Of a stretch of 64,000 nt of DNA, positions 16,436-55,652 are shown in pieces. Every line of letters starts with the position of its first letter. Within the stretch, counting starts at the first letter, position 1. The notes beneath the pieces were generated by a model. That model was not told the DNA's origin, made no database searches, and saw nothing but the letters and a program-made list of their open reading frames with translations. Made by a program: the position numbers and the translations under genes. Source of the DNA: Chitinophagaceae bacterium (GTDB taxonomy: Bacteria; Bacteroidota; Bacteroidia; Chitinophagales; Chitinophagaceae); NCBI GenBank assembly GCA_019752045.1, contig JAIEMP010000005.1, positions 62,001 through 126,000 on the forward strand. Reading direction: 5' to 3'.

Positions 16436-17644
16436 TTATTCATTGGCTTTAAACACCCTGATAAAATTTCCACCCAATATTTTTCTGATGTTTTTTTTGC
16501 TGTAACCTCTTTCAAGCAAAGCTTTAGTGATAAGGGGGTAATCTTCCACCCCGTTTAATTCCAATGGAGGTGCTTCAATGCCATCAAAGTCGCTGCCCAT
16601 ACCTACATGATCAATACCCACCAGCTTTACAATATAATCAAGATGATCAAGTAAAAGGGATAATGGCGGACGTAACTCATCCATTTCGCTTTTATATTTT
16701 TCTGATACCATCATCAATGCATAATCTTTTTGTTTGCCTTCCTGAACAAGCTGATTAATTTCAGTTTGATGCTGTTGTATAAACGCATTGCGTTTTAGTT
16801 CGTAGGTACTGTCAATAAATCCTGCATAGAAATTTAAAAACACCACACCACCGGTTTTAGCAATGGCTTTAATCTGATCATCTTTTAAATTGCGGCGATG
16901 CGGACAAAGCGTCCACACACAGCTATGCGATGCAATGATTGGTTTGCTGCTGATCTTAATGATGTCCCAAAATGTTTGTTCACCCACATGACTCACATCA
17001 ACCATTACACCCAACTCATTCATGCGTTTAATAACACTATTTCCAAATTCAGTAAGACCCTTTTTTCTTTCGGGGGCTTTCAAAGTCTCTCCGCCAGCTG
17101 GCGGAGGAGATTTAGAGGGGGCCTGGGAGGCCGTCTCATACGCCGCACTCGTGGCCCAATCAGTAGAATTATTCCAGGTAATGGTCATGTAGCGCATACC
17201 TCTTTTATAGAATGCATCGAGTTTGCCCAGATCGTTTTCAATCATATGACCGCCTTCAACACCTAACATGGTTGCCAGCTTTTTTTCTTTCAATGCTTTT
17301 TGCAGATCGGCAGGAGTATACACCATCATCATTTTTGAAGGATTGCGCCGCACCCATTCATACACACTGTCTATTTCTCTGTTAGCATAGTTGAATGGAT
17401 TCGTTTGTTCCCCATCGCAGAAAATAGAAAATTGCTGTACATCTAATCCTCCTTCAAAAATCCTGTTAAGATCAGAATGAGTTTTTCCTTTGAGGTTGGT
17501 ATCAAACGCCAGTTTTTTTTCAATGGCCGATGAGGGGATGTCGTTGTGTGTATCTGCCAATACGGCTCTATTATGTATTTTTTTATATTTCTGACTGAAA
17601 CAAAAAAAAGGAATAAGTAAAAGAAGCAGTGTACGTAGAAACAT
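16436..17644 (-). CDS. membrane dipeptidase, peptidase family M19 (copy 2)
   Basis: This is a 402-residue exported zinc dipeptidase, paralogous to 1813-3000 throughout. It has a signal peptide (MFLRTLLLLLIPFFCFS), ADTHND, VEGGHMIEND, IASHSCVWTLCPHRRN and HVGMGSDFDGIEAPP. Compared with copy 1 it carries a roughly 12-residue longer segment between SAAYETA and KKGLTEFG. There the DNA (17082-17122) matches the palindromic intergenic repeat at 18382-18415, so the repeat is translated as SKSPPPAGGETLK. The insert lies in a surface-loop-like position and leaves the frame intact. It is divergent from GNAT copy 2 across only about 40 bp. Confidence 0.94.
   Translation of the reverse strand: MFLRTLLLLLIPFFCFSQKYKKIHNRAVLADTHNDIPSSAIEKKLAFDTNLKGKTHSDLNRIFEGGLDVQQFSIFCDGEQTNPFNYANREIDSVYEWVRRNPSKMMMVYTPADLQKALKEKKLATMLGVEGGHMIENDLGKLDAFYKRGMRYMTITWNNSTDWATSAAYETASQAPSKSPPPAGGETLKAPERKKGLTEFGNSVIKRMNELGVMVDVSHVGEQTFWDIIKISSKPIIASHSCVWTLCPHRRNLKDDQIKAIAKTGGVVFLNFYAGFIDSTYELKRNAFIQQHQTEINQLVQEGKQKDYALMMVSEKYKSEMDELRPPLSLLLDHLDYIVKLVGIDHVGMGSDFDGIEAPPLELNGVEDYPLITKALLERGYSKKNIRKILGGNFIRVFKANE
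17082..17122. repeat. palindromic repeat inside the dipeptidase gene
   Basis: AAGTCTCTCCGCC then GGCGGAGGAGATTTAGAG and GGGGC. The AAGTCT start and the 17-nt GGAGATTTAGAGGGGGC end are identical to the intergenic copy at 18382-18415. The centre CCGCCAGCTGGCGG is a perfect palindrome. It is translated in frame in the second dipeptidase and absent from the first. Confidence 0.85.
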
Positions 17645-50004: not shown

Positions 50005-50194
50005 TTACTGCTTCACTTCCGTCGTCACCTTCGGTACTTCTTTCGTCCATGACCCAACATCCATCTTTCGTGGCGTTGGATAAATTTCATCGAGTGTATT
50101 ACCATCATACAATCGTCCGTTTTTTACAACATAACGGATGGTATTTGTATTGCGGATATTCACCAATGGATTGCCATCCATGATTACAATATCT
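50005..50194 (-). pseudogene. 3' fragment of the TolB/amidohydrolase gene
   Basis: These 190 bp match 52056-52245, the last 63 codons of the intact gene, with only six mismatches by my count. The fragment includes the stop codon and the encoded VVKNGRLYDGNTLDEIYPTP region. Homology stops abruptly at 50194, exactly where the RAYT repeat module begins. It has no start and no upstream coding part, so it is a dead remnant of a duplication or of an older gene copy. Confidence 0.9.
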
Positions 50195-50200
50195 TGCCCT

Positions 50201-50282
50201 TGTTGGTGTTCCTTGGCTCAAATATTTCCTCAAGTCGATCTTTATTCGTAGTCTGCCGTCGTTGTGTGTTTTCACCAACGAC
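50201..50282. repeat. left flanking repeat of the RAYT module
   Basis: It contains TGTTGGTGTTCC (50201-50212) and a hairpin GTCGTTG–TGTGTTTTCAC–CAACGAC (50258-50282). The same two parts occur in inverted orientation on the right flank (50887-50951), with the same loop but a different stem. The hairpin lies 22 nt past the transposase stop. Confidence 0.8.
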
Positions 50283-50304: not shown

Positions 50305-50842
50305 CTACTCCCGCCAATGTGTAAGAAACCCAAATTTATCCACCAGTGTTTCATAATAGCTGGCCGAAGAATAACAATAATCTTCGGGCAATATACATAA
50401 CCCGGCTTCAACTGGATTGTAATGTATGTAGTTCACTTTCTGAAAATAGACTTCCTCGCTGTATAAATCAATACTTAAGGGATTCCGTTCCCAAAATTGA
50501 AACTGCCAGTCCTTTGCATCTACACGAAACTCTTCCAGAAACTTCGGATTGGTTTTCTGCAAATCAAACTTAATCTGTTGTGCAGTATATTTCATAAAAC
50601 TATGCTGCACCTGTGGTGCTTTGAAGCCGTTTATCGCTTGCCATATTAAGTGAATATCCTGCCCGTCCGGTCAGGCGGGGGTTACTCATGATCACAAAAC
50701 TATTAACAATAACCCGCTGTTCCTTAACAAGAAATCGCAAGCTCTCAAGAATAATATCTTTATACTTATCTTCTTTCAACAGGTGTTTCCACTCAAGTAT
50801 GGTAGCAGTAAAAAACTGGGGGTGCTGGTCCGTTTGTATCAT
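50305..50842 (-). pseudogene. REP-associated Y1 transposase (RAYT), broken by a palindrome insertion
   Basis: The gene starts at 50842 (MIQTDQHPQFFTATILEWKH) and runs in frame to VNSFVIMSN, where a 22-bp palindrome (50658-50679) shifts the frame and leads to a stop. Removing these 22 bp restores SNHIHLIWQAINGF, with the HUH motif H-I-H, followed by KAPQVQHSFMKYTAQQ with the likely catalytic Tyr. The rest reads on to WERNPLSIDLYSEE, YIHYNPVEAGLC and the stop at 50305. The restored length, about 170 residues, is normal for RAYTs. The copy is inactive as written. Inverted stem-loops flank it. Confidence 0.92.
50658..50679. repeat. 22-bp palindrome inserted in the RAYT HUH motif
   Basis: CCTGCCCGTCCGGTCAGGCG plus GG, an imperfect palindrome centred on CCGG. 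It resembles the CCTGTCCCG...CGGG palindromes at 17915, 17966 and 20672. Its removal restores an intact transposase reading frame. Confidence 0.88.
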
Positions 50843-50886: not shown

Positions 50887-50951
50887 CCCTTGCTGGTGAA
50901 AACACAAGCAAGGGCGATGGAATTCTAATATCAGCCTTTGGAACACCAACA
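50887..50951. repeat. right flanking repeat of the RAYT module
   Basis: The hairpin CCCTTGCT–GGTGAAAACACA–AGCAAGGG (50887-50914) and GGAACACCAACA (50940-50951) are the inverted counterparts of the left flank. The loop is conserved while the stem differs yet still pairs. Confidence 0.8.
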
Positions 50952-51038
50952 GTGGCGGAAGGGTATTTTTCGTTTTACAGGCATCGTGCTAATTTAAAAA
51001 CAATCTGCTTGTATAACAAATCCAACGCTTCGCATCAC

Positions 51039-51098: not shown

Positions 51099-51617
51099 TT
51101 AAAGGTTATTCACTTCTTTTTTTCTCTCGCTGTCTAATTTTTTTAACCATGCTTGTAAAATTTTCTTCCATGAAACACCTGAGCTGATACCCGTTTCGTA
51201 TACTTCTTTTGTTTTGCGATCAGTCATAATAAAAGAATGACTAGCCGATGTAAGACTCATAGGTCCTTTCCCTCCTGAATAATCTGCTGGTGAACTTGGG
51301 CGAGCTTCATTTATTGAAATTTCATTATTTAGGATATATCTATACTTAATTGAGTCTGCATATTTGTTTTTAAGCTCATCTGCCTGAACAAAAACATATT
51401 CACCTGTATAATATTTCTTGAATATCTTATCAACTTTTCTATTATAGAAGTTTTGATGTTTTATGACAAGGATTGTCGTTTTTTCTTTACCAAAATCTGT
51501 CGGTACATTTTTACTATCCTTTCTGATATAGGACTTTATAATCAGACCACATGAACTAAAAGTGAGTAACGTAATAATCAGGAAATAATGTTGGAGGTTT
51601 AAATTTTTCATAGTCAA
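51099..51617 (-). CDS. hypothetical lipoprotein
   Basis: This 172-residue protein has a lipoprotein signal (HYFLIITLLTFSSC), so the mature protein starts at the Cys and is membrane-anchored. The ATG at 51611 is an equally good start. The rest shows KTTILVIKHQNFYNRKVDKI and SHSFIMTDRKTKEVYETGIS with a basic C-terminus, and no family is recognised. It lies between the RAYT module and an ORF6N remnant in a patch that looks recently rearranged. AT content seems higher than in neighbouring metabolic genes. Confidence 0.7.
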   Translation of the reverse strand: MTMKNLNLQHYFLIITLLTFSSCGLIIKSYIRKDSKNVPTDFGKEKTTILVIKHQNFYNRKVDKIFKKYYTGEYVFVQADELKNKYADSIKYRYILNNEISINEARPSSPADYSGGKGPMSLTSASHSFIMTDRKTKEVYETGISSGVSWKKILQAWLKKLDSERKKEVNNL

Positions 51618-52055: not shown

Positions 52056-55000
52056 TTACTGCTTCACTTCCGTCGTCACCTTCGGTACTTCCTTGGTCCA
52101 TGACCCAACATCCATCTTTCGTGGCGTTGGATAAATTTCATCGAGTGTATTACCATCATACAACCTTCCGTTTTTTACAACATAACGGATGGTATTGGTA
52201 TTACGGATATTCACCAATGGATTGCCATCCATGATTACAATATCTGCCAACTTACCGGGTTCCACACTACCAAGTTCTTTATCTAACCCCAATGCTGTTG
52301 CACCAAGAATAGTTGAAGTTCGCAACATATTGATCGGCGTCATACCACTGCTGGCAACGCTCCACATTTCCCAATGATAACCGAGGCCCTGCAACTGACC
52401 ATGACTGCCTACACCTGCAATGCCACCTTGCGTTACAACACTGTTTACACTTTGTGCATGTTTAGGAAACACATGATCTTCCGGTGCAAACCATCCACCC
52501 AAACCACCTGCCCGGCGGCGGGCTTTTGAATTCAACTCTTCATACGGTGTAAAGCGGTTGAGCTTTGGATCTTTTAACGGACTTTCTGTAGTGTAATAAA
52601 AATTCTCAGCCCATGGTCCGCCATACGCAACCAATAAAGTTGGCGTGTATGCCATTTTACTTTCTGCAATGGTGCTCGTTAAATCTTTATACAACGGAAA
52701 AACAGGAATGGCATGTTCATGACCGGGATAACCATCAAACAATTGTGTCATGTTCAATTTAAAATCCAAACCACCTTCCGTAGTAGGCATCAGCTTTTGT
52801 TCTTTTGCTGCCATGATCACCCACTGACGCATTTGCCTGTTACCAACGAGATACATTTTAATATACTGTGTGTTATAATACTTGCTGTATTGTTTCAACA
52901 CATTTCTTGTTTGATCAAGGTCTTTTAAATTATACATCCAGAAACCAACACCGGGTCCTGTGCTGTAAATACGTGGACCGGGTAATTGTCCTGCTTCAAC
53001 CATATCGCCCCATGTTAATACATCGGTCGTTGCTGTTTGGGGATCTCTGGTAGTAGTAACACCATACGCCAGATTAGCTGCATAAATCCATGATGTGTTT
53101 TTATGCAATCCCCAGTAAGTCCACATATGCGAATGCGTATCAACAAAACCGGGTGTAATTGTTTTACCCGTGCAATCAACTTCTTTTGTTCCTGCAGGCG
53201 GACTCAGTGTTCCTGTTTTGCCCACTGCTTTGATCCGGTTATTAACGATCAACACATCTCCATTTTCAATTACCTCCTCTCCTTTCATTGTAATGATGCG
53301 TGCATTTTTTAATAAGATGCTGCCAATGGGTAAGTCTTTCTGAAAATATACTTTCACCTGTGTTTCAGCTGCTGTATATTTTTCGGCTTTCTTTTTTTCT
53401 TCGAGCGCAAGCTTTTCTCTGTTGGCTCTTGCCGTATCTACTTTTAAAATAGCAGCGAGCGAGTCAGCACTTTTCTTTGCAAGTGAATCGGCCATGCGTT
53501 TTGCATCCGGACCTAAAGCAATCAATGCCTTTACACTGTCTGCCATTCTTTTTGCTTCGATCTTTTTTGCTGCTTTCACCGAATCTTCTACAAACTTTGC
53601 ACGCTCTGTATCGTATACCCAATGACCATTGCCTAAACTCCAGTGAATTTTTTTACCGTTTGCTTCCCATGCAGGAAACTCACCACCAATTTCTGTTAAC
53701 TGTCTTGATGGGAATGCACTCAAATTTGGATCAGCTACATTGATAACGGGAATTTTTCCTGCATCAGGAATGGTAACTACATACACATTGTTGTTTACCT
53801 GAGCAATGGCCTGGTTGCCAACAGGCGACATTAAGATAGTACCTGCAGGTGTTGGTAAATTCTGCGGCTCACGGTTACCCGTACTCTCCGGCAACATGCA
53901 GTTGTTTACAGGATCCGTATTCATGATTGGTTTGCCCATTACATACTTTACAGTATTTGCAACTTGATTGCCATTGGTTGTTTGATGATTGTCTCCATCT
54001 TCTGCTGTACCATAAGTAGTAATACCTGTTATACGTGCATGTGTTTTTAAATCAGTTCCATCCCAACGAACAGAAACCAACGCACCTCCTCCTGTATTGA
54101 GATATATACGATTGGTATCTTTTGTAAAATGAATATTGCCGTAGTTGGCAGCAAGGATATCCACTTTTGTAACATTACCGCCGTTTGGATTCATCCACAC
54201 CAGCTCTGCTTCATTACCACTGTAAAATGGATCTTCTGCATCTTTAAACAAACGCTTTGGTCCACGGAAAAAAGTAATGCGGTTATTGTAACTCCATACG
54301 GGCTGCATATAAAATGCAGCTTCGGTTGTGAGTTTGGTGATTGAAGGCTTGGGTGATAGTGCTGCTTTATACATATGTCCACCATCTGTTTCACTCCATG
54401 TAACAAAGACCAATTGATTTCCATCAGGACTCCATGATGGCATGGCTTCTGTAAAATTAAAATTGGTTACACGTTTTGCTGTTCCGTTTGGATAATCCAT
54501 TACATACAATCTGTTCAACACAGTAAATGCTAATTTTTTTCCATCGGGACTTGGAACACCGTCACGAATTTGTGTGGCCAATGCTGCACTCGTATCTTTT
54601 ACTGCATAGTTGAAATACAATCTTGGACCAAACTCTAATGCAACATCCGCATCAAAAACAATTTCTGTTGCTTTGCTTCCATCAACAGGAAGTTTCCAAA
54701 GCTTACCGCCATAACTGGCAATTAAAAATTTACTGTCGGGTGTAAAACTCATCCCGGGTAATACACCTTGTGGTGCAATACTTTCCTGTTCATCTCTTTG
54801 TACGGGATAGGCCAGCCATTTTTCATCACCTGTTTTCATGTTGCGTAAGATGAGGCCGGTTTTATCTTCGTGCCTGCTGCCATAAGCCATCCATTGCCCG
54901 TCTTTGCTGAGCGTTGGTGTAAAGGATGAACCATATCTGCTTGCAATTACATTCACTGTTCCTTTTTCACGATCGTATGTTCCTATTTGATATTGCGGTA

Positions 55001-55652
55001 ACAATGCATTGTAATTCCATGAGCCAATGCGTTGACTGAAGTAAACGGTTCTTCCATCAGCACTTACAAACGGATCAATCATTTTTAAGTTGGGAGGAAG
55101 TTCACCTAATTGAATACCACCACCACCATCTTTGTGATACATCCACAGCTTTGCAATACGACGGCCCTTGCTTGCTACAATATAATTTCCGTCGGGTGTC
55201 CATACCGCTGCAGGAAAATCTTCTGTGCGGTCTTTTGTTAATTGAATGGTGTCTTGCTTTTCCATATCAATGTACCAGATATTATCACTGCCGCTTCGGT
55301 CGCTGGTGAAAAGAATCTTTTTTCCATCGGGACTGAAACGTGGATGTGTTTCATATGCCATACCTTTTGTGATTTGTGTGGCTTTACCACCTGCAACGGG
55401 AATGGTATAAATATCTCCCATCAAGTCAAAAGCAATGGTGCTGCCATCAGGACTTACATCCACACTCATCCAGGTACCTTCTTTGGTATTGAATTTTACT
55501 TCCCGTTCTGGTTTTAGCGGAAGGTTGGCAAACTTGGTGTAAACCATCGTGTCTTTTTTGACACTGTCGGCCTGTATTGGCACCAGATTTTGTTGCGCCA
55601 TTGCCGGCAGCACAAAAGCCGAAGCCAATACCGTAAACATGTATTTTCTCAT
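52056..55652 (-). CDS. TolB-like propeller fused to amidohydrolase
   Basis: This 1198-residue exported protein has a signal peptide (about 1-19) and a first half of TolB/PD40 beta-propeller blades (about 45-650, for example FSPDGKKILFTSDRSGSDNI). An Ala/Lys/Glu-rich helical linker (about 690-770, with two RMADS repeats) joins it to an amidohydrolase domain (about 785-1180). There the metal site begins with GFVDTHSHMWTYWG; later VGSHGQLQGLGYHWEM and LGSVEPGKLADIVIMDGNPL are typical of the imidazolonepropionase-like family. It is probably a periplasmic cyclic-amide or dipeptide hydrolase with a propeller gate. The substrate is unknown. A 190-bp copy of its 3' end lies at 50005-50194. Confidence 0.94.
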   Translation of the reverse strand: MRKYMFTVLASAFVLPAMAQQNLVPIQADSVKKDTMVYTKFANLPLKPEREVKFNTKEGTWMSVDVSPDGSTIAFDLMGDIYTIPVAGGKATQITKGMAYETHPRFSPDGKKILFTSDRSGSDNIWYIDMEKQDTIQLTKDRTEDFPAAVWTPDGNYIVASKGRRIAKLWMYHKDGGGGIQLGELPPNLKMIDPFVSADGRTVYFSQRIGSWNYNALLPQYQIGTYDREKGTVNVIASRYGSSFTPTLSKDGQWMAYGSRHEDKTGLILRNMKTGDEKWLAYPVQRDEQESIAPQGVLPGMSFTPDSKFLIASYGGKLWKLPVDGSKATEIVFDADVALEFGPRLYFNYAVKDTSAALATQIRDGVPSPDGKKLAFTVLNRLYVMDYPNGTAKRVTNFNFTEAMPSWSPDGNQLVFVTWSETDGGHMYKAALSPKPSITKLTTEAAFYMQPVWSYNNRITFFRGPKRLFKDAEDPFYSGNEAELVWMNPNGGNVTKVDILAANYGNIHFTKDTNRIYLNTGGGALVSVRWDGTDLKTHARITGITTYGTAEDGDNHQTTNGNQVANTVKYVMGKPIMNTDPVNNCMLPESTGNREPQNLPTPAGTILMSPVGNQAIAQVNNNVYVVTIPDAGKIPVINVADPNLSAFPSRQLTEIGGEFPAWEANGKKIHWSLGNGHWVYDTERAKFVEDSVKAAKKIEAKRMADSVKALIALGPDAKRMADSLAKKSADSLAAILKVDTARANREKLALEEKKKAEKYTAAETQVKVYFQKDLPIGSILLKNARIITMKGEEVIENGDVLIVNNRIKAVGKTGTLSPPAGTKEVDCTGKTITPGFVDTHSHMWTYWGLHKNTSWIYAANLAYGVTTTRDPQTATTDVLTWGDMVEAGQLPGPRIYSTGPGVGFWMYNLKDLDQTRNVLKQYSKYYNTQYIKMYLVGNRQMRQWVIMAAKEQKLMPTTEGGLDFKLNMTQLFDGYPGHEHAIPVFPLYKDLTSTIAESKMAYTPTLLVAYGGPWAENFYYTTESPLKDPKLNRFTPYEELNSKARRRAGGLGGWFAPEDHVFPKHAQSVNSVVTQGGIAGVGSHGQLQGLGYHWEMWSVASSGMTPINMLRTSTILGATALGLDKELGSVEPGKLADIVIMDGNPLVNIRNTNTIRYVVKNGRLYDGNTLDEIYPTPRKMDVGSWTKEVPKVTTEVKQ

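Follow-up and report, generated by a model that had tools for sequence, protein, structure and literature searches.

Homing introns, inteins and the mitochondrial byp elements recur at those codons that are best conserved in a gene family, and the palindromic elements of Rickettsia, which are longer than the element described here, are inserted in frame. Closer to the present case are the REPs. As described in the accessible parts of PMC3733652, where the Rickettsia elements are also named, GTAG/CGTC REPs are palindromes of 20-40 bp, some lying in genes and some nested in other palindromes, and CGTC repeats have no dedicated transposase. According to the accessible parts of a second study (Quentin et al. 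2018, PMC6006769), which also deals with single-strand insertion of the IS200/IS605 type, REPs are found inside tnpAREP genes of subclass 2.4, in frame and generally between HuH and Y; Bacteroidetes are among the hosts, and these RAYTs are flanked by the same REPs. Neither paper, in those parts, mentions an insertion at the catalytic codon, and the open-access literature, so far as its text was accessible, reports neither the palindrome described here nor any other that sits at the HUH codon.

Here we describe a 22-bp imperfect palindrome (the 22-mer) that interrupts the gene of a REP-associated tyrosine transposase (RAYT) in a 64,000-nt stretch of Chitinophagaceae DNA, the window. With a probability of roughly 0.6, we regard it as a mobile micro-palindrome that inserts precisely and recurs at two RAYT codons, that would be moved in single-stranded form by a Y1/HUH enzyme, and that has probably left the RAYT copy in the window dead. 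The case bears on how REP-like palindromes spread and on whether RAYTs move them, and it adds an out-of-frame, catalytic-site example to the known in-frame REP insertions in RAYT genes. As a low-copy palindrome at two exact RAYT codons, one of them catalytic, it provides natural insertions that can be compared with uninterrupted relatives, which opens target choice, the enzyme responsible and any reversibility to direct testing.

The interrupted RAYT gene

The gene lies on the reverse strand at 50305-50842 and consists of two parts separated by the insert. Its 5' part (50680..50842) reads ...VIVNSFVIMSN and ends with the first base of a His codon. The 22-mer follows (50658..50679; CCCGCCTGACCGGACGGGCAGG on the coding strand), and the 3' part (50305..50657), which reads IHLIWQAINGFK... 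and carries the W and Y motifs (FQFWE and YIHYNP), runs to the stop at 50305. The two parts match complementary ranges of the NCBIfam profile NF047646, namely 8-57 (19.9 bits, E 0.00054) and 82-146 (36.3 bits, E 4.7e-09). These scores are below the cut-off of 80, as is that of the uninterrupted relative in genome G013 (77.4 bits), and Pfam gave no match at E 0.01 for either part or for that relative. Because its length cannot be divided by three, the insert also shifts the reading frame: left unrepaired, the 5' frame continues across it and meets a stop near 50600, and the longest ORF with a start codon in the 3' part is 50305-50610.

Near relatives of this gene are uninterrupted (G013, 83% identical over the 3' part; G004, 79%; G009, 75%). 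The G013 relative reads MSNHLHVIW at the break point and has the HUH and catalytic Tyr motifs SNHLH and YIHYNP; the window gene has the same motifs, its N-H-I-H being split by the insert. When the homologues were aligned at this site, as the first-pass annotation had suggested, both sides aligned with exactly 22 nt extra. Its proposal that a mobile palindrome had landed in the HUH motif, splitting the RAYT gene by 22 bases at 50658-50679, is confirmed by this precise gain and by the uninterrupted relatives, in which the bases are not normal in-frame coding sequence. It had correctly placed the insert at the first His of HUH; the exact point is inside the His codon, behind its first base, and not, as it had stated, between the Asn and His codons.

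Inverted palindromic repeats flank the gene. One pair consists of 17-nt arms, 88% complementary, at 50196..50212 and 50940..50956, unlike the 22-mer in sequence; a second pair was read by eye. Further out, a 190-nt direct repeat (50005-50194 and 52056-52245, 97% identical) duplicates the 3' end of an amidohydrolase-like gene (52056-55652), and the RAYT gene and a small ORF (51099-51617) lie between its copies.

Recurrence in other RAYT and Y1 genes

In Lacibacter cauensis (G010), another member of the Chitinophagaceae, the 22-mer stands after the first base of the same HUH His codon, and a G004 RAYT carries it there with one base different. The three RAYTs interrupted at this site (N^H) share 23% (G010 and window), 27% (G004 and window) and 24% (G010 and G004) identity, and in a tree they are nearest to sequences without an insert at the codon, that of G010 being distant. 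As the palindrome occupies this codon in two further, highly divergent RAYTs from other bacteria as well, its placement in the window is unlikely to be a one-off accident; the target-site preference that had been suggested for it gains support from these three genes.

A second codon is hit as well. The genome to which the window belongs (G000) has a second, different RAYT on contig C14; in this gene, and in the related one of G012, the break follows the first base of the Gln codon of F-Q-F-W. That Gln codon is also interrupted, by a variant 2 or 3 bases off, in three RAYT copies of G085, which have 51-52% identity with the window RAYT over the part compared. The codon belongs to the conserved motif Y/F-Q^x-W and is interrupted in two lineages (G000 C14/G012, and G085). 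The RAYT insertions therefore comprise five events on two codons (N^H and Y/F-Q^x-W), for which hand arithmetic gives a chance of about 1e-7 with 540 uniform positions, or about 7e-5 with 60 usable ones. In a sixth event the gene hit is an IS200-like Y1 transposase of G076, at another position, and the insert has the orientation of the gene in all six inferred events.

The patterns of both sites were also searched family-wide (<=2 mismatches, 394 genomes each). The N^H pattern yielded 12 listed matches, two of them real (window and G010), with a backward control of 0; the other ten were not shown to be RAYTs, three of them being 22-mer-like (two in G214, one in G022; two of these three were checked). 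For Y/F-Q^, 4 of the 13 listed matches were real (G000 C14 and three in G085); the other nine look like background, one of them (G207) being a 22-mer at a non-RAYT site, and the backward control gave 1. G004 and G012, known from a separate search, were left out of this draw. Among 150 distinct sites sampled from the matches listed, six rows (five events) fell in Y1 genes, compared with about 0.2 sites expected if Y1 genes make up 0.12% of the genome, which is a generous estimate; the concentration of the RAYT events on two codons is the more telling result. The Y1 profile found four of these rows, whereas motif and alignment identified the rows of the window and G010. The recurrence of the site in RAYTs is real.

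Truncated Y1 matches in G009, at first sight splits near HUH, were rejected: they are IS200-type copies truncated in the gene and carry no palindrome. Five such transposase copies (L202-L206) have a common truncated frame, and four of them run on into an identical continuation downstream, which suggests the multiplication of a single form with an internal deletion.

Copies, distribution and relation to REPs

The 22-mer is a non-coding mobile micro-palindrome of Chitinophagaceae. In its own genome (4.16 Mb, 29 contigs) four copies were counted at <=3 mismatches, with none for the backward-pattern control; the two exact ones lie in the window RAYT and at C14:97613 within the second RAYT, and the remaining two are intergenic. 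Variants included, it is present (<=1 mismatch) in 49 of 394 family genomes, the richest complete genomes examined holding 13 (G154) and 16 (G091) copies. Strands are unequal in G154 (11 forward, 2 reverse; 9 to 1 in roughly the negative-skew half) and equal in G091 (8 forward versus 8 reverse). In the C^A context, 12 stretches were found in the whole species collection, three of which are the RAYT copies of G004, G010 and G012; a search of viral contigs returned 0 stretches. The only copies found in G004, G010 and G085 are those inside RAYTs, and some may be missed in G004 and G085 because these assemblies are listed as 92% and 83% complete.

The first-pass annotation had named a sequencing or assembly artefact as a way in which its reading could fail, and to this we assign practically no probability. 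In its favour, metagenome assemblies make up many of the genomes, and G000 and G012 have a piece of 3,022 bp in common without any difference. However, an artefact is refuted by recurrence in independent assemblies: 49 of the 394 genomes carry the 22-mer, with variants, and L. cauensis CGMCC 1.7271, whose record is not labelled MAG, has it in a different gene, at the corresponding codon. The identical piece (L018 in G000, L019 in G012, same genus) surrounds a 22-mer copy common to both and matches at 100%, perhaps through recent transfer or mixed assembly; the RAYT copies of these genomes differ by about 8%.

As an imperfect palindrome of 22 bp, with 8 of 11 pairs Watson-Crick, the element falls within the 20-40 bp of canonical REPs, and it folds little more strongly than shuffled sequences (DNA z -0.99 and -1.64; RNA z -1.09 and -1.15). 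It resembles the GTAG/CGTC REPs, as portrayed in the accessible parts of PMC3733652, in its palindromic form, its occurrence within genes and its nesting, but differs in being untagged, in its very low copy number and in recurring at two codons of one gene family. No GTAG or CGTC tag stands at either end, the flanks of the 150 sampled sites (among the matches listed) being variable and without a fixed tetranucleotide. Nor does it flank a cognate RAYT: within the flanks of the sampled sites, mostly 0.9-1.5 kb, the only 22-mers near RAYT frames were Y1-internal copies and a RAYT cluster in G004, and a scan of the RAYT loci fetched for comparison for a general 22-bp palindrome returned only the known RAYT-internal copies. 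Because it has no fixed foot, few copies and no RAYT-flanking position, and is unlike the RAYT's own repeats, the 22-mer is not a canonical REP, and the idea that it is the RAYT's own REP is not supported. Nor was its described similarity to other palindromes in the window confirmed. When GC-rich palindromes of 20-24 bp were sought there with <=2 unpaired positions, a limit that left out the 22-mer itself (three unpaired positions), one was found, at 17087-17108 (CTCTCCGCCAGCTGGCGGAGGA), unrelated to the 22-mer in sequence; a scan for the 22-mer at <=2 mismatches gave the RAYT copy as its single match.

It is improbable that the 22-mer is instead a REP belonging to another RAYT family, comparable to those inside subclass 2.4 genes. 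It is palindromic and mobile, and the accessible parts of PMC6006769 place such REPs within RAYT genes between HuH and Y, where the Y/F-Q^x-W insertions of C14, G012 and G085 are also located. The subclass 2.4 insertions are in frame, however, whereas 22 nt are extra at five loci here and the frame is not kept; one of the sites is a catalytic codon, and the RAYT's flanking repeats are of other sequence. The fixed tetranucleotide foot is absent, the fetched loci contain RAYT-internal copies only, and the sampled sites flank a separate RAYT in G004 only.

Insertion outside Y1 genes

Most of the 150 sampled sites (among the matches listed) lie outside recognised genes, many of them within other repeats. 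A long frame runs across the joined flanks at 17 of the 150, and likewise at 17 of the 150 when the 22-mer is left in, so frame length alone proves nothing. The 17 joined-frame sites include five Y1 genes by homology and 12 others, one of which is mostly N. None of the 11 tested non-Y1 sites had a Pfam match on both sides, a weak test for short genes because Pfam also misses the window RAYT; at two of them, an intact gene begins beyond the site. The genes demonstrably split by the 22-mer are Y1 transposase genes, while short unknown genes could be missed. A 568-aa frame across the copy at L014 proved spurious, being antisense to another gene. At position 1501 of L280 (G076 C24), a variant of the 22-mer lies at the extreme end of an open frame, whose stop codon it appears to provide.

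These data could also arise from ordinary dispersal, with the 22-mer inserting widely, selection purging insertions from useful genes and RAYTs being merely the dispensable places where insertions survive. RAYTs are non-essential genes, and the prevalence of sites outside recognised genes and in repeats would fit such a process. We nevertheless consider it unlikely, as it does not predict two identical codons in divergent RAYTs, nor genomes in which only RAYT-internal copies are found; moreover, no other split gene was recognised at the 11 non-Y1 joined-frame sites, a test that is weak for short genes.

Mode of insertion and target preference

Split tblastn alignments with uninterrupted relatives gave exactly 22 nt extra at the window, C14, G012, G085 C136 and G076 loci; for G010, the only value was 49, from a distant query. 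We dropped the 'extra' values at L192 (22) and L298 (26), where there is no palindrome, and also additional alignments of already known loci that gave 34, 49 and 52. In G091, a 26-bp phrase is found uninterrupted at 57 places (<=2 mismatches), and five fetched copies of it (in L080, L081, L082 and two in L084, one of which deviates near the phrase end) hold the 22-mer at one fixed point with nothing duplicated. Both at the RAYT sites and in this phrase, insertion is precise: 22 nt are gained, and the target is neither duplicated nor lost. A Y1 enzyme inserting a single strand would produce just such a result. The 22-mer resembles the IS200/IS605 type in inserting precisely, in one orientation and without target duplication, but has neither a transposase of its own nor a fixed 5' tetranucleotide target. 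The G091 phrase itself (ATCCCGAAGGGATGNAATTATTATAG, on contig C1) often occurs as inverted pairs about 115 bp apart, which resemble the ends of a small inverted-repeat element.

Flanking bases are biased. Among the 150 sampled sites (from the matches listed), A is found at -3 in 118 and at +2 in 91, and position -1 is G in 94 and C in 35, that is, G or C in 129. The target motif that the annotation had proposed to map is present as a bias, and not as a fixed tetranucleotide. Two target models were used to rank the insertion sites. The general model, built from 120 distinct non-RAYT sites, ranked the true site 190/1168 in the window, 335/1308 in G010, 147/848 in G004, 512/1088 in C14, 526/1088 in G012, 490/888 in G085 and 59/908 in G076; on the opposite strand, C14 and G012 ranked 26/1088 and 21/1088. 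With a C-type model from 26 sites having C before the insert, the ranks were 96/1168, 667/1308, 67/848, 287/1088, 278/1088, 26/888 and 204/908, in the same order. Since the general model accounts poorly for the RAYT sites, and the C-type model lifts some of them (G085, G004, window) but fails for others (G010), target preference alone was rejected as the explanation; sequence preference may contribute to the placement in RAYTs, but does not account for the pattern.

On the reading we prefer, a Y1/HUH transposase would have moved the 22-mer in single-stranded form, and the two codons may be recurrent targets owing to a feature of RAYT genes, be it the motif sequence, single-strandedness or the presence of the enzyme near its own gene. 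More tentatively, and with considerable doubt, one may suppose that the palindrome is specialised in transposase genes, a homing-like element without coding capacity that parasitises or switches off the enzymes capable of moving such palindromes. Like homing introns, inteins and byp elements, it is found repeatedly at codons under the strongest conservation in a gene family; unlike them it has only 22 nt, and no endonuclease, splicing or matching landing triplets were seen. Like the Rickettsia elements it is a palindrome inserted in protein genes, but its 22 nt shift the frame. In a bolder form of this idea, interrupted RAYTs would stay under selection because the palindrome could be bypassed or removed precisely, and it would then act as a reversible off-switch.

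Fate of the interrupted genes

With its first catalytic His broken up and the frame shifted, the window RAYT copy is most likely dead. Its death appears recent, because private codon changes of the window lineage in both parts number 34 synonymous versus 8 nonsynonymous. Inactivation is the plain reading at N^H, where the first catalytic His is lost, and loss of RAYT function is the likeliest outcome of insertion.

The C14/G012 pair sits badly with simple inactivation, unless the two genes were hit separately: both have the identical insert, and their divergence indicates purifying selection (dN/dS 0.10, dS 0.33). A 58-bp tract around the insert is identical in the two, as read from the sequence. 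Outside the element the two genes have no flanks in common, which leaves room for separate insertion, recombination or conversion. G085 fits simple inactivation no better: copies C15 and C136 have the same site and variant, yet 27 of about 36 synonymous sites differ between their 3' parts, and their flanks diverge within a few bases of the insert. These two cases imply either independent hits at one site or retention of the inserts.

Retention would mean that interrupted RAYTs remain selected, through ribosomal bypass or frequent precise excision. The identical insert and tract of C14/G012 at that divergence, and the shared site and variant of the diverged G085 copies, would be expected under it. 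Against it, the first catalytic His is gone at N^H, flanks examined by eye contain no matching take-off and landing triplets for translational bypass (as usually defined), the C14 and G012 genes lack common flanks beyond the element, and the G085 copies hold additional frame breaks. Retention or reversibility is accordingly quite improbable, and separate hits at the same site are favoured for both C14/G012 and G085, given the other frame breaks in the latter. A third, partial copy of the C14 RAYT (L009, 1313-1570) starts in the middle of the palindrome, with GGACGGGCAGG followed by coding sequence, as if it had been rearranged at that point.
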